Source: Betaproteobacteria bacterium
GTDB lineage: Bacteria > Pseudomonadota > Gammaproteobacteria > Burkholderiales > Ferrovaceae
Assembly: GCA_028868905.1 (NCBI GenBank)
Contig: JAGWTQ010000002.1
Coordinates: 1-57,709 of the forward strand
Direction: 5' to 3'
Length of the DNA stretch: 57,709 nt
A program made the position numbers and the translations under genes. The notes below the pieces were generated by a model. That model was not told the DNA's origin. It searched no databases and worked only from the letters and a program-made list of their open reading frames with translations. Position 1 is the stretch's first letter, and each line of letters opens with the position of its first letter. Of this stretch, positions 18,255 through 24,025 are shown piece by piece.

Positions 18255-20780
18255 ATGATTGACGAATACCGGGGGCTTGATGCCGCCACCGTGGCAGCCC
18301 GCCAGGCGGCGGAAGGCCCCAATATCCTGAGCCGGGAACCCCGGCGCACCTTCTGGGCCATTGCGGCCGAAATTTCCCGTGAACCCATGTTCCTGCTGCT
18401 GCTGGGGGCCGGCCTCGTCTATCTGGTGCTGGGGAAACCGGGAGATGCGCTGGCATTGCTGGGTTTCGTCATCATCATCATGGGGGTGACCATCGCCCAG
18501 GAGCGCCGTACCGAGCGCACGCTGGAAGCCTTGCGGGACCTGTCGAGCCCGCGGGCACTCGCCATTCGCGACGGGGTGCCCATGCGGATTGCCGGGCGCG
18601 ACGTGGTGAGGGACGACTTGCTGGCGCTGGTCGAAGGCGATCGGGTACCGGCTGACGCGTGGGTGCTTCAGGCCCACGAGCTCGCCCTGGACGAGTCGCT
18701 GCTCACGGGCGAATCCGTGCCCGTGGCCAAGGCAGGGGCCGCGCCGGGGGCGCCGGCGGCTGATGAGGTCGCGCGCGTCTATGCTGGAACGCTGGTGGTG
18801 CGCGGGCAAGGCCTGGTGCGGGTGACGGCCATTGGCGATGGCACGCGCCTGGGCGCCATAGGCCGATCGCTGGAAACGGTGAAGTTTGAGACATCCCCCC
18901 TGCAGCAGGAGCTGGCCCGGCTGACGAAGCGTCTGGCCTGGATTGCGCTGGCTTTTTGCCTGCTGCTGGTGGGCCTGTACTGGGCGTTGCGGGGGGGCTT
19001 CCTGGAAGGGGCGCTGGCGGGCATTACGCTCGCCATGGCGATTCTGCCGCAGGAAATTCCGGTGATCCTGATCGTGTTCCTGGCTCTGGGCGCGCGCCGG
19101 ATTTCCCGCCACCGGGTGCTGACCCGGCGTCTCAATGCCATCGAAACGCTGGGCGAGACCACCGTGCTGTGCGTGGACAAGACCGGAACGCTCACCCAGA
19201 ACCGCATGACCCTGAGCAGCCTTTGCGTGGAGGGTCAGGTGCTCGACGTGGGCGACCTTGCGATCCGCGACCTTCCGGAACGGTATCACCTGCTTCTGGA
19301 ATACGCGGTGCTGGCCAGCGAAATCGAACCGCATGACCCGATGGAACGGGCTTTTCACTCGTTTGCGCACGATTATCTGGCCCATACCGAGCATTTGCAT
19401 GCTGACTGGGCGCTGGTTCGCGAATACGAACTCACGCCGGAGCTGCCGGCCATGACCCATTTGTGGCAGCCCGACGACGGCAGCCATGCCGTGGTGGCTG
19501 CCAAGGGGGCGCCGGAAGCCGTGGCGGACCTGTGCCACCTGCCCGAAGCGATGCGGCGCGAAGTGGCCCGCCAGTCGGAGTCCATGGCGGATCGGGGATT
19601 GCGGGTGCTGGGCGTGGCCCGGGCCATTCATCGCGGCGAATCGTGGCCGGATGCGCAACACGACTTCGACTTCGAGTGGGTTGGGCTGGCCGGTCTTTCC
19701 GACCCGCTGCGCCCTGAAGTGCCTGCCGCCGTGCGCCTGTGCCGCAACGCCCACATTCGCATCGTGATGATCACGGGCGATCACCCGAGAACGGCGCGTG
19801 CCATAGCCCAGGGTGCAGGCATCGACTGCCGCCGGGTCATCACCGGCGCCGAAATGGAATCCTGGTCGCAGGAGATGCTGGACGAGCGGGCGGCCCAGAC
19901 CTGCGTGTTTGCCCGGGTGACGCCGGCCCAGAAATTGTTGCTGGTGAATGCGCTCAAGCGCCGGGGAGAAATCGTCGCCATGACCGGAGACGGTGTGAAC
20001 GATGCACCTGCGCTCAAGTCGGCGCACATCGGCGTGGCCATGGGCAAGCGCGGCACCGACGTGGCCCGCGAGGCGGCCTCGCTGGTGCTGCTGGAAGACG
20101 ATTTTTCCGCCATAGTCACCGCCATCGAACTGGGCCGCAGAATCTATGCCAATCTTCGCCAGGCCCTGGTCTATACCATTGCCGTGCATGTGCCCACCAT
20201 CGGACTGAGCCTGCTGCCGGTGCTCATGGGTTGGCCTCCCGTGCTGGCGCCCGTCCACATCGCCTTTCTGGAACTGGTCATCGATCCGGCCTGCTCGGTG
20301 GTGTTCGAGGCCGAGGAAGGGGGAGAGCCGCTCATGGAAAATCCCCCCCGGGCGACGACAGAAGCGTTGCTGTCGAACCGGCAACTGGTGATGAGCCTGA
20401 CATTCGGCCTGCTTGCCACGGCGGTCGTGTGTGCACAGTACCTGTGGGCGGTTCAGGGCGGAGTACAGGAAGGGACGGCTCGCGCCATGACGTTCGTGGC
20501 CCTGATCGGTGCCAATATCGCCCTGATCCTGGCTTCCCGTTCCCCCCGTCCGGGCGTGGGACGCCTGCTGGGACGCCTTTCGAAAACAGCGTTGCGCGTG
20601 CTGGTGCTGACTGTGGTCGGGCTGGTGTGCGTGACGGCCTGGCCGCCGCTGGCCACCCTGTTCTCTTTCCGCACGCTGACGCCGCAGTCCTGGCTGGCTG
20701 CCTTTGGCCTGGGGCTGGCCACGGTCCTGCCGCTGGAGCTGGCCAAGCGCGCCCTGTCCGGGGTCGTCACAAAACCTTAA
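18255..20780 (+). CDS. Cation-translocating P-type ATPase, P2 type
   Basis: An 841-aa inner-membrane ion pump. The phosphorylation site is DKTGTLTQN (Asp about 308), the actuator loop has LTGESVPVAK, and the hinge is MTGDGVNDAPALK. Helix 4 reads LPQEIPVILIVF, a PQEIP variant of the PEGL/PEEFP ion-site motif. Two helices precede the actuator, two precede the phosphorylation domain and six follow, the P2 layout. The transported ion (calcium, magnesium, proton, manganese or other) cannot be decided. The gene begins 27 bases after the c-di-GMP enzyme. Confidence 0.9.
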   Translation: MIDEYRGLDAATVAARQAAEGPNILSREPRRTFWAIAAEISREPMFLLLLGAGLVYLVLGKPGDALALLGFVIIIMGVTIAQERRTERTLEALRDLSSPRALAIRDGVPMRIAGRDVVRDDLLALVEGDRVPADAWVLQAHELALDESLLTGESVPVAKAGAAPGAPAADEVARVYAGTLVVRGQGLVRVTAIGDGTRLGAIGRSLETVKFETSPLQQELARLTKRLAWIALAFCLLLVGLYWALRGGFLEGALAGITLAMAILPQEIPVILIVFLALGARRISRHRVLTRRLNAIETLGETTVLCVDKTGTLTQNRMTLSSLCVEGQVLDVGDLAIRDLPERYHLLLEYAVLASEIEPHDPMERAFHSFAHDYLAHTEHLHADWALVREYELTPELPAMTHLWQPDDGSHAVVAAKGAPEAVADLCHLPEAMRREVARQSESMADRGLRVLGVARAIHRGESWPDAQHDFDFEWVGLAGLSDPLRPEVPAAVRLCRNAHIRIVMITGDHPRTARAIAQGAGIDCRRVITGAEMESWSQEMLDERAAQTCVFARVTPAQKLLLVNALKRRGEIVAMTGDGVNDAPALKSAHIGVAMGKRGTDVAREAASLVLLEDDFSAIVTAIELGRRIYANLRQALVYTIAVHVPTIGLSLLPVLMGWPPVLAPVHIAFLELVIDPACSVVFEAEEGGEPLMENPPRATTEALLSNRQLVMSLTFGLLATAVVCAQYLWAVQGGVQEGTARAMTFVALIGANIALILASRSPRPGVGRLLGRLSKTALRVLVLTVVGLVCVTAWPPLATLFSFRTLTPQSWLAAFGLGLATVLPLELAKRALSGVVTKP

Positions 20781-20803
20781 CCGGCCGTTCACAAATCGGT
20801 CAC
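20764..20803 (+). promoter_or_regulatory. Pho box-like direct repeats upstream of the lipid-remodelling operon
   Basis: Four 7-base units at an 11-base period: TCGTCAC, CCTTAAC, CGTTCAC and CGGTCAC, with linkers AAAA, CGGC and AAAT. The last pair (20786-20803) matches the classical 18-bp PHO box (CTGTCAT-A[AT]A[AT]-CTGTCA[CT]) at 14 of 18 positions by my count, including the AAAT linker. A -10-like CTCAAT lies 10 bases further on (20814-20819), the spacing usual in PhoB-activated promoters. The first unit overlaps the end of the ATPase gene. Confidence 0.65.
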
Positions 20804-20828
20804 CTGCGCGTGGCTCAATGGGCGAAAC

Positions 20829-21722
20829 TTGAAATGGACCCCAGCCATATTGTTATCACCGCGCCCGATCTCGCCTGACCCCACCCCTCCCCGGGTCGAA
20901 ATTCATTCCCGGGGCGAAAGTTTCAATTACCGTGCCATCTGGATCTCCGACATTCACCTCGGCACGCCCGGCTGCAAGGCCGACTACCTGCTCGATTTCC
21001 TGCGCTGCCACGAAGCGGAAACGTTTTATCTGGTGGGCGACATCCTGGACGGCTGGCAGCTCAGAAAAAGCTGGTACTGGCCGCAGACCCACAACGACGT
21101 GGTGCAGAAGCTGCTGCGCAAGGCACGCAAGGGCACGCGCGTGGTCTACGTGCCGGGAAACCACGACGAGCTGGCGCGCCAGTTTGCAGGGCTCGCCTTC
21201 GGCGACGTGGAAGTGGCGGAAGAGGCGGTGCATACGCTGGCGGACGGCCGTCGCCTGTGGGTGGTGCACGGCGACCTGTTCGATGGCGTGACCCAGCATG
21301 CGCGCTGGCTTTCCCATCTGGGCGACACGCTCTACACCCTGGTGCTCAAGTTCAACCAGTGGCTCAATGCCGTGCGTGCGCGACTGGGCATGCCCTACTG
21401 GTCGGTATCCCAGTACCTGAAGCAGCAGGTCAAGAATGCCGTCAACTACATTGCCGCCTTTGAGGAAGTGATGACCGAAGAGGCGCGCCGGCGCGGCTGC
21501 CACGGCGTGGTGTGCGGCCATATCCACAAAGCGGAAATCCGGGACATCGGCGGCCTGCTCTACTGCAACGACGGCGACTGGGTGGAAAGCATGACGGCAC
21601 TGGTGGAGACCTTCGAAGGGGAGCTGAAGATCGTGGAGTGGCGCAACCGGGTGGATGCGCCGCTCAACCTGGGACCGACCGTCCTCGATGAAGAAACGCC
21701 CATTCTGGAGACTGTGGCATGA
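20829..21722 (+). CDS. plcP: PlcP-like metallophosphoesterase (phospholipase C-type; also annotated LpxH-like)
   Basis: A calcineurin-type binuclear phosphoesterase of up to 297 aa. Metal-binding motifs are SDIHLG, GDILDGW, GNHDE, VVHGD and GHIHKAE. The family-specific wording around them (AIWISDIHLG, WYWPQTHNDVVQKLLRKARK, YWSVSQYLKQQVKNAVNYI, NDGDWVESMTALVE) is that of the PlcP group, shown in rhizobia to cleave phospholipids to diacylglycerol during phosphate starvation. The start is uncertain: TTG at 20829 or 20850, and no in-frame ATG precedes the conserved region. Its stop overlaps the glycosyltransferase start (ATGA). PhoB-like repeats lie just upstream. Confidence 0.8.
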   Translation: MKWTPAILLSPRPISPDPTPPRVEIHSRGESFNYRAIWISDIHLGTPGCKADYLLDFLRCHEAETFYLVGDILDGWQLRKSWYWPQTHNDVVQKLLRKARKGTRVVYVPGNHDELARQFAGLAFGDVEVAEEAVHTLADGRRLWVVHGDLFDGVTQHARWLSHLGDTLYTLVLKFNQWLNAVRARLGMPYWSVSQYLKQQVKNAVNYIAAFEEVMTEEARRRGCHGVVCGHIHKAEIRDIGGLLYCNDGDWVESMTALVETFEGELKIVEWRNRVDAPLNLGPTVLDEETPILETVA

Positions 21723-22756
21723 AAATCATGATTGTGACCGATGCCTGGGAACCCCAGGTCAATGGCGTGGTTCGCACGCTCAAGAATACCCGCCGGGAAC
21801 TGGAAGCGCTGGGCCACCAGGTGGAGTTTCTGACGCCGCTCGAGTTCCGGACGTTGCCGTGCCCCACGTATCCGGACATCCGGCTTTCGCTTCTGCCGGG
21901 TACGGCCGTGCGCCGCCGCATCCGGGCCTTTGCGCCGGATGCCCTGCACATTGCCACGGAAGGGCCGTTGGGCATGGCGGCCCGGGCCTGCGCGTTGCGC
22001 GACGGCCTGCCTTTCACCACGGCATACCACACGCGCTTTCCGGAGTACGTGAAAGCGCGCTTTGCCATTCCGTTGTCCTGGACCTACACCTTCCTGCGCT
22101 GGTTTCACGGCCCGTCGCGCGCCGTCATGGCGCCCACCCCGGTCGTGGTCAGAGACCTGGAGTCCTACGGGTTTCGCAATGTGGTGTTGTGGAGCCGGGG
22201 AGTGGATCTCGATATTTTTCGTCAGCAGGATGTCAACAAGCTCAACACCAAGCCGCCGATTTTTCTGTACGTGGGCCGGGTGGCGGTTGAAAAGAACGTG
22301 GATGCCTTCGTGAACCTGGATCTGCCGGGGTCGAAGTGGGTGGCCGGCGACGGCCCGGCACTGGCGCGCATCAAGCAGGCCCATCCGGACGTGAATTATC
22401 TGGGCGTGCTCAACCAGACCCAGCTGGCAGAAGTGTATGCCTCGGCCGACGTGTTCGTGTTCCCCAGCAAAACCGACACCTTCGGGTTGGTGCTGCTGGA
22501 GGCCATGGCCTGCGGGTGTCCGGTGGCCGCTTATCCCGTCACCGGGCCGCTCGATGTGATCGGGTCGTCCGGGGCCGGCGTGATGCACGAGGATTTGCGC
22601 GAGGCCTGCCTGCAGGCGCTCGCCATCCCGAGGGAAGCGGCACGTGCGCACGCTGAAAAGTTTTCCTGGCGTGCGGCCACCCAGCAGTTTCTGGGCCACT
22701 TGCGCCCCATGCCGGAACGGGCCGGAGTTGCCGAGTTGCAGGGTGAAAGCGTTTGA
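21719..22756 (+). CDS. agt: Family-4 glycosyltransferase, Agt-like (diacylglycerol glycosylation)
   Basis: A 345-aa GT-B glycosyltransferase. The N-terminal half begins MKIMIVTDAWEPQVNGVVRT, with TEGPLG and TTAYHTRFPEY as in sugar-lipid synthases of the SqdX/alpha-mannosyltransferase type. The C-terminal half holds the donor site with YVGRVAVEKN, a FPSKTDTFGLVLLEAMACG signature (EX7E) and a C-terminal helix. Placed directly after plcP with a four-base overlap, it matches the PlcP-Agt pair in which Agt puts hexose or uronic acid onto diacylglycerol. The sugar donor cannot be predicted. Confidence 0.8.
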   Translation: MKIMIVTDAWEPQVNGVVRTLKNTRRELEALGHQVEFLTPLEFRTLPCPTYPDIRLSLLPGTAVRRRIRAFAPDALHIATEGPLGMAARACALRDGLPFTTAYHTRFPEYVKARFAIPLSWTYTFLRWFHGPSRAVMAPTPVVVRDLESYGFRNVVLWSRGVDLDIFRQQDVNKLNTKPPIFLYVGRVAVEKNVDAFVNLDLPGSKWVAGDGPALARIKQAHPDVNYLGVLNQTQLAEVYASADVFVFPSKTDTFGLVLLEAMACGCPVAAYPVTGPLDVIGSSGAGVMHEDLREACLQALAIPREAARAHAEKFSWRAATQQFLGHLRPMPERAGVAELQGESV

Positions 22757-23136
22757 ACCCTCCCCACCCTGAAAGCCCTTACAAGGGGAAAACCGGGCTG
22801 CGCCGGGTCTGGAATGCGCTGGGCTATTCGCTCGACGGCTTTGCCGTCGCCTACCGCCATGAAAGCGCGTTTCGCCAGGAGGTGGTGCTTGCCGCCGTGC
22901 TGATTCCCCTGTCGTTGTTCCTGCCGGCTTCAGGCGCCGGTCATGCGTTGATGGCGGGCAGCATCCTGCTGGTCATGCTGGTGGAATTGCTCAACTCGGC
23001 GGTGGAAGCGGCCGTGGATCGCATTTCCCTGGAAAACCATCTGCTCGCCAAGCGTGCCAAGGATATCGGCAGTGCCGCCGTGCTGCTCAGTCTCATCCAT
23101 GTGGCTGTGGTTTGGGTGCTGGTGCTGTTTTTTTGA
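22753..23136 (+). CDS. dgkA: Diacylglycerol kinase
   Basis: A 127-aa integral membrane kinase of the prokaryotic DgkA family, converting diacylglycerol to phosphatidate with ATP. It has three membrane helices. The catalytic segment ELLNSAVEAAVDRIS is complete, as are the N-terminal GYSLDGFAVAYRHESAFRQE glutamates. It starts at TTG 22753, whose last two bases are part of the previous stop (TTGA). It is probably co-transcribed with plcP and agt, where it could recycle diacylglycerol. Its 3' end overlaps the convergent EamA gene by 44 bases. Confidence 0.93.
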   Translation: MNPPHPESPYKGKTGLRRVWNALGYSLDGFAVAYRHESAFRQEVVLAAVLIPLSLFLPASGAGHALMAGSILLVMLVELLNSAVEAAVDRISLENHLLAKRAKDIGSAAVLLSLIHVAVVWVLVLFF

Positions 23137-24025
23137 TCAGCGCACCCAGCCCGGCTCCCACCGTTACCAGAATCACTCCCAGTCCCGTCACGCCCGTGAT
23201 GTCTTCGCCCAGGAATGGCACGGCCAGCAGCGCCGATGTGCCGGGAACGATGGCCAGCATGAGCGATGCGACGCCCGAACCGAGCGAGAGGGTGGCGTAG
23301 GCGTAGCTGAATGCGGCCACCAGCGCGGCGATCACGCCCTGGTACACCGCCTGCAACAGGATGTCGTTGAGCGACGCGGCTCCCAGGCCCTTGGGAAGCA
23401 GCAGGGCGTAAATCGGCAAATAGATGCAGGCTGAAGTCACGGCAATGCCGCTCACCGCATCGATCGGGCGCACGTGCCAGAGGCGCACCAGCAAACCGTA
23501 GCAGGCCCACAGCAGCGAAGCAGCCACGAAACACAGGTCGCCGGCCCATTCCAGGCTGTTTTCCGCATGCGGTGCGCCCAGGCTGTTGAGGCCCAGGATC
23601 AGCACTCCCGTGGCGGCCAGTCCGAGCGCCGCGAAGGCGCGGGCGGTGGGACGGTCCTTGAGCCAGACCCAGGCCAGCAGTGCCGTGCCCAGGGGGACGC
23701 CGCCGTTGACGATGATGCCGGCGTGAGCTGCCGGCGCGAAAACGAATCCACTGTAGACAAACAGCGCATAAAAAAGTCCGCCGACTCCGGCCACTGCCAG
23801 CAGGCGGGGCAAGGGCAGGCTGTTTTTCACGGCGATGAACACCGGCAGCATGAAGCAGCCCGATACCGCAAAACGCAGCGCTGCCATGTCGAATGGCGTC
23901 AGCGGACTTTTGCCGCCCAGGCGCGAGACGATGTTGAAGCCGGTCCAGCAGGCGATGACAACGGCGGCGGCAAGAAAACCTTTCCAGCGGGGGCGTTCCG
24001 GATGCGTGTGGGGCATGTGGGGCAA
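23093..24025 (-). CDS. EamA/DMT-family transporter
   Basis: A 310-aa membrane protein with ten predicted helices arranged as two EamA repeats of five. The first opens with AAAVVIACWTGFNIVSRLGG and the second with GDLCFVAASLLWACYGLLVR. Members export amino acids, nucleosides or other metabolites; the substrate is unknown here. A His/Pro-rich N terminus (MPHMPHTHPERP) gives two possible ATG starts, at 24025 and 24016. It is convergent with dgkA. Confidence 0.88.
   Translation of the reverse strand: MPHMPHTHPERPRWKGFLAAAVVIACWTGFNIVSRLGGKSPLTPFDMAALRFAVSGCFMLPVFIAVKNSLPLPRLLAVAGVGGLFYALFVYSGFVFAPAAHAGIIVNGGVPLGTALLAWVWLKDRPTARAFAALGLAATGVLILGLNSLGAPHAENSLEWAGDLCFVAASLLWACYGLLVRLWHVRPIDAVSGIAVTSACIYLPIYALLLPKGLGAASLNDILLQAVYQGVIAALVAAFSYAYATLSLGSGVASLMLAIVPGTSALLAVPFLGEDITGVTGLGVILVTVGAGLGALIKKTAPAPKPQPHG

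Follow-up and report, generated by a model that had tools for sequence, protein, structure and literature searches.

A probable PhoB-activated lipid-remodelling operon with a diacylglycerol kinase as its third gene in a Ferrovaceae bacterium

Introduction

Membrane lipid remodelling by PlcP and Agt is an already known pathway that is usually drawn one-way: what, then, would a diacylglycerol kinase be doing in the same operon? The question is raised by a stretch of 57,709 nucleotides (hereafter the window; contig JAGWTQ010000002.1 of assembly GCA_028868905.1, a betaproteobacterium of the family Ferrovaceae) in which three genes, plcP, agt and dgkA, follow a set of PhoB-like repeats and are predicted to encode a phosphoesterase, a glycosyltransferase and a diacylglycerol kinase. 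A first-pass annotation had read the locus as a swap of phospholipid for glycolipid of the kind known from rhizobia and marine bacteria. We consider that it is very likely a PhoB-activated membrane lipid-remodelling operon, and the kinase in third place makes it a variant of the known pathway.

Results

The phosphoesterase is of the PlcP type

The three genes are where the first-pass annotation had placed them: re-reading of the sequence confirmed that neighbouring genes overlap by four bases (ATGA at 21719, TTGA at 22753). The identity of the first gene decides what the operon could do, as its product might instead be an LpxH-type lipid A enzyme, in which case this would be an envelope-building operon that incidentally carries a glycosyltransferase gene and dgkA. 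The two enzymes belong to a common fold family (the window protein matches PF00149 with 44.1 bits, cut-off 21.5), the solved structures closest in sequence are LpxH, and public records name PlcP genes, that of Sinorhizobium meliloti included, UDP-2,3-diacylglucosamine diphosphatase; the earlier warning that such labels hide the pathway was thus correct. We nevertheless find an LpxH-type enzyme highly improbable and rejected it because: (i), in a tree of 70 rows (duplicates left out; L024 of genome G018, which has no duplicate, included) 12 LpxH rows and 58 PlcP-type rows are split at 100/100 by a very long branch, with the window protein on the side of PlcP from S. meliloti and Pseudomonas aeruginosa, and the LpxH proteins of Escherichia coli and of the window's own genome among the LpxH rows; (ii), the protein stays far under both NCBIfam LpxH equivalog cut-offs (40.1 vs 134 and 36.7 vs 190.35); (iii), the genome encodes a separate LpxH elsewhere, 50% identical to that of E. 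coli over 218 residues, and so does hold the second lpxH gene on which the first-pass assignment had been made to depend; and (iv), a Pho array stands in front of the gene. The tree and the separate LpxH also support the reading of the locus as a PlcP-Agt lipid swap.

Over about 80% of its length the window protein is 58% identical to S. meliloti PlcP and 53% to P. aeruginosa PlcP, and the residues D41-H43, G70-D71-D74, G110-N111-H112-D113 and G230-H231-I232-H233, which correspond to the metallophosphoesterase motifs D-x-H, GD-x-x-D, GNHD and GH-x-H, are invariant in nine aligned rows. The S. meliloti gene is presumably SMc00171, a label that fits its neighbours, an acyl-homoserine-lactone synthase gene and a LuxR gene. 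Another phosphoesterase of the same genome, lipoprotein-like and matching PF04185 with 229 bits, is encoded on contig C56 (L205:1371-3074, plus strand); PF04185 includes acid phosphatases and secreted phospholipases C.

The glycosyltransferase groups with Agt1

The second gene product carries two domains of glycosyltransferase family 4 (GT4; PF13439, 92.4 bits, and PF00534, 77.5 bits). It shares 51-53% identity with P. aeruginosa Agt1 and 30% with the product of the gene adjoining plcR in that species, which we take to be Agt2. In a tree of 61 chosen rows, whose root was set on Agt2 by choice, it falls in a 45-row, mostly betaproteobacterial clade (99/97) that is nested in a 55-row clade (98/95) together with Agt1, Agt2 lying beyond the branch of this larger clade. 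Essential residues, a His-Asp dyad and contacts to diacylglycerol (DAG) are described for GTcp of Pelagibacter in the accessible text of PMC8231724. Among these, the window protein keeps GRVAVEKN and FPSKTDTFG (motifs GRVAxEKN and FPSxTDTFG), H104, D253, R160 and W317, and has Ser159 at the place of GTcp Thr162, a match of numbering that we infer, GTcp itself lying outside the alignment.

The sugar donor is most likely a UDP-sugar, and glucose the most likely sugar. GT4 Agt enzymes differ in their donor in the experiments covered by the accessible text of PMC8231724 and PMC8528852, and the product could accordingly be a glucuronosyl or other sugar lipid, or the lipid anchor of a surface glycan, in place of bulk monoglucosyl-DAG. 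We regard this as rather unlikely given that the window protein shares its clade, a broad one that includes alphaproteobacterial enzymes, with P. aeruginosa Agt1, which uses UDP-glucose only, and not with Agt2. The glucosyl-DAG product is therefore retained as the favoured prediction.

A four-repeat Pho array precedes plcP

The PhoB-like repeats reported upstream of plcP are four direct repeats of 11 bp starting at 20764, TCGTCACAAAA, CCTTAACCGGC, CGTTCACAAAT and CGGTCACCTGC, and the array is conserved in loci of the window's own family. Among the 115,338 places of the window, two reach its four-repeat score of 20, and a motif of 62 bases, learned from 14 loci that lie outside the window's genus (12 in its own family), scores +39.4 at this position and -3.8 at the second-best place in the window. 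All 19 own-family loci tested have an array before plcP whose score no more than 3 of 300 approximate dinucleotide shuffles attained; the six own-family plcP places outside this test are that of G018 and five of the genus with a more distant PlcP. Overall, 32 of 48 loci (duplicates left out) reach the same level, P. aeruginosa among them, and S. meliloti fails (20 of 300 shuffles).

A -10-like CTCAAT lies six bases past the end of the array, ten past the last CGGTCAC, and the aligned loci have CTYAAT or a near variant at this fixed distance, several with a start codon 7-9 bases further on. The plcP messenger RNA may be nearly leaderless, because plcP of the window's own genus begins within some ten bases of the predicted -10 element. 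By eye, three loci from a sister genus (L015, L018, L021) show an ATG frame of 10-11 codons that opens just past the -10 element and closes at the plcP start, in an ATGA.

The genome also encodes PhoB itself (348.2 bits, NCBIfam cut-off 296.2), with a kinase carrying a PhoR domain adjoining phoB, and a pst locus in which pstB has pstS upstream and CTGTCATGAAACTGTAAT, a Pho box, precedes pstS. With a Pho box ahead of its first gene and PhoB-PhoR encoded in the same genome, the operon has the sequence hallmarks of a PhoB regulon member. Next to pst, a PF13444 GNAT protein is encoded on contig C89 (L102:9564-10397, minus strand) beside open reading frames that look ppx- and ppk-like by eye; it is possible that this is an OlsB-type ornithine-lipid enzyme, offering a second phosphorus-free lipid route.

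The kinase is the only DgkA found in the genome

The third gene product matches PF01219 with 114.4 bits (cut-off 22.3) and solved diacylglycerol kinase structures at 2.4e-26; its helix stretch VELLNSAVEAAVDRI, presumably the active-site region, corresponds to VEILNSAIEAVVDRI in E. coli. The coupled dgkA had been described as an added branch. It does stand as the third gene and encodes a kinase, but it is no added copy: no second dgkA was found in the genome, which is 87.7% complete, and this one would thus be the resident kinase.

How widespread is the trio?

A search of related genomes for the third gene had been proposed in the first-pass annotation, and it shows that the trio occurs in other genomes as well. 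In 150 genomes (the window's own included) we found 81 strong PlcP places in 79 genomes, with agt next in 47 and dgkA third and in the same direction in 21 of these pairs; agt is counted as absent here where no match reaches E 1e-45, and another glycosyltransferase may stand in its place, as in L072. Among named loci (the best 80 of at least 593 stretches) 22 have the trio, many of them in Burkholderiaceae, the genera including Burkholderia, Paraburkholderia, Cupriavidus, Caballeronia and Polynucleobacter, and 18 of the 22 have a convincing four-repeat array. In five of the 80 a contig ends less than 1.5 kb from the plcP match, making absence of the trio uninformative there.

Considering the 18 own-family genomes that are at least 90% complete, all 13 with plcP-agt have dgkA (in G017 elsewhere in the genome), and the five in which plcP has no agt neighbour belong to a single genus and lack dgkA; one of these five (G010) encodes a 38% identical glycosyltransferase elsewhere in its genome. 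In three loci with a more distant PlcP (L072, L073, L077) dgkA lies directly before the gene of a different, 32-36% identical glycosyltransferase, no more than about 3 kb from plcP and on the same strand, a second pairing of dgkA with a glycosyltransferase gene. Two records of metagenome-assembled genomes titled Klebsiella pneumoniae (L136) and Asaia bogorensis (L184) carry plcP-agt loci close to Burkholderiales ones, and their titles may be wrong.

Gene calls and neighbours

The features of the locus are collected in Table 1. The start of plcP is backed by another member of the genus (G003), where an ATG stands at almost the same position and the conserved LLSPxP comes next. A P-type cation ATPase gene lies upstream, and the first 17 bases of the array are its 3' end. 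Downstream, an EamA-type transporter gene (23093-24025, minus strand) is convergent with dgkA and covers its last 44 bases.

Table 1. Predicted features of the plcP-agt-dgkA locus, in positions of the window.
Feature	Position	Strand	Assignment	Basis
Pho-box array	20764..20807	+	Four 11-bp direct repeats, predicted PhoB binding	Trained motif and conservation
-10 element CTCAAT (predicted)	20814..20819	+		Aligned relatives have CTYAAT, CCCAAT or TTCAAT in the same position
plcP	20829..21722	+	PlcP-type phosphoesterase, TTG start	PF00149, tree clade, invariant metallophosphoesterase motifs
agt	21719..22756	+	Predicted GT4 diacylglycerol glycosyltransferase	GT4 domains, clade holding P. aeruginosa Agt1, GTcp residues
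dgkA	22753..23136	+	Diacylglycerol kinase, TTG start	PF01219, match to solved structures, sole copy found in genome

Discussion

The data suggest the following scheme, in which the enzyme activities, the sugar, the induction, the translational coupling and the role of DgkA are predicted from sequence. When phosphate is short, PhoR-PhoB would activate one promoter, in which the four-repeat array replaces the -35 region. PlcP would remove the phosphate headgroup from membrane phospholipids and leave DAG, which Agt would join to the sugar of a UDP-sugar, giving a phosphorus-free glycolipid. The dgkA gene, which overlaps agt, is probably translationally coupled to it, and DgkA would turn the DAG left over by Agt into phosphatidate, returning the backbone to phospholipid synthesis, so that DAG would not build up.

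Where would the DAG come from? In E. coli, DgkA handles the DAG set free by OpgB, EptA and other members of PF00884. The window's own genome has no member of this family above cut-off, its lone weak match being the PF04185 protein, and in one sister genus five near-complete genomes lack PF00884 matches of any strength and all retain dgkA. PF00884 enzymes were thus discarded as another DAG source in this genome, PlcP would be the most evident main source of DAG recognisable in it, and DgkA the natural outlet for the DAG that Agt does not use. The simplest objection is that PlcP and Agt remodel lipids and dgkA is merely a housekeeping gene, parked in the operon or read from a promoter of its own, whose product does not act on DAG from PlcP. 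That dgkA is usually single-copy and stands alone in many relatives would fit such a view, as would the scarcity of Pho arrays before stand-alone copies and the presence of PF00884 proteins in part of the family. We find it unlikely, since the genes overlap in the window, the trio recurs in several families where the trees hint at repeated recruitment, and dgkA is kept in genomes without PF00884 enzymes.

Several points nevertheless weigh against a remodelling operon with a DAG branch under PhoB. At the present completeness of the genome, a second dgkA or an OpgB or EptA gene could have been missed. PF00884 proteins over cut-off occur in 6 of 32 own-family genomes, five of which have dgkA, and PlcP therefore need not be the sole DAG source across the family. 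Stand-alone dgkA genes, that of E. coli included, lack a convincing Pho array in 22 of 23 loci, arguing that dgkA is not generally a Pho gene; control of stand-alone copies by an array of their own was thus rejected as a general explanation, and it would be the operon that puts dgkA under PhoB. The one stand-alone copy with a Pho-type array (L107, contig C31 of G126; 0 of 300 shuffles as good) belongs to a genome whose plcP-agt pair is without dgkA. A single 18-bp box in front of plcP is weak, agreeing with the consensus at 9 of 14 letters and ranking 216th in the window; a lone Pho box was accordingly dropped as proof of PhoB control, and the four-repeat array and its conservation were used as evidence in its place. 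Finally, dgkA is not third in 26 of the 47 plcP-agt pairs. In one of these (G004) agt and dgkA remain neighbours but the locus is broken between two contigs, and in G018, G021 and possibly G081 it reaches a contig edge.

Comparison with known systems places the operon next to plcP-agt1 of P. aeruginosa. Both enzymes, their order, the overlap of the genes and a strong four-repeat array in the upstream test are common to the two; however, P. aeruginosa has no dgkA in third place, and a convergent gene with an adenylate/guanylate cyclase domain adjoins agt. The plasmid-borne P. aeruginosa genes compared here are presumably PA3219-PA3218, judging from their order and neighbours. The pathway would also be that proposed for PlcP with a GT4 Agt in S. 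meliloti, Phaeobacter, SAR11 and Methylosinus, although plcP of S. meliloti has no agt beside it. For P. aeruginosa, a Pho box in the promoter region and altered lipids in plcP and agt1 mutants are reported in the accessible text of PMC8528852, and the PlcP-Agt route is proposed for Methylosinus and marine bacteria in that of PMC9239053 and PMC4796936, in neither of which a word search finds "kinase". In Pseudomonas putida BIRD-1, PlcP and DagK rise on phosphate depletion and the discussion calls both PHO-dependent, but among the proteins listed as missing from the phoBR mutant PlcP is named and DagK is not, and the accessible text does not state that they form one operon (PMC5082522). In the open-access literature that we searched, we found no paper on a plcP-agt-dgkA operon, a search directed at Cupriavidus included, and the one paper matching both plcP and dgkA has dgkA as an entry of a gene list.

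Burkholderia, Paraburkholderia, Cupriavidus, Caballeronia and Polynucleobacter have the three genes in identical order, which raises the question of whether the trio arose once. In three directly compared genomes of this group (G062, G106, G148) agt is 74-75% identical to that of the window, whereas dgkA is 47-57% identical and sits in another clade. The Agt proteins of the window's family and of Burkholderiaceae form one clade (99/98), which also holds those of Thiobacillus and G070, both without dgkA beside agt; the operon dgkA of the family groups with stand-alone copies of other families and not with the operon copies of Burkholderiaceae. A single origin of the operon dgkA of these two groups is rejected by the approximately unbiased (AU) test (p-AU 0.006, nested rows included), and a single origin of all operon copies is not (p-AU 0.09), the groups having been named after the first dgkA tree was seen. 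That tree included 16 of the 22 named trio loci; from the second, 11 rows were dropped, ten as long rows or members of long clades and L122 for an operon state unread at a contig end. As the Agt proteins form one clade and the operon dgkA copies do not, the data suggest that dgkA joined plcP-agt more than once. It is tempting to speculate, as a tentative idea that we would not yet favour, that several lineages, the window's family and Burkholderiaceae among them, repeatedly captured their resident kinase, which would now receive its DAG from PlcP at a regulated branch point.

In such genomes, phosphate-starvation phospholipases are the likelier products of many genes that now carry a lipid A enzyme label. 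A kinase in the same operon in Burkholderia, Cupriavidus and Polynucleobacter suggests that the one-way drawing of PlcP-Agt remodelling hides a controlled DAG branch point. If so, phosphate starvation would set a regulated branch point to work, from which DAG would go either to glycolipid or to new phospholipid, with the headgroup phosphate regained at every turn.

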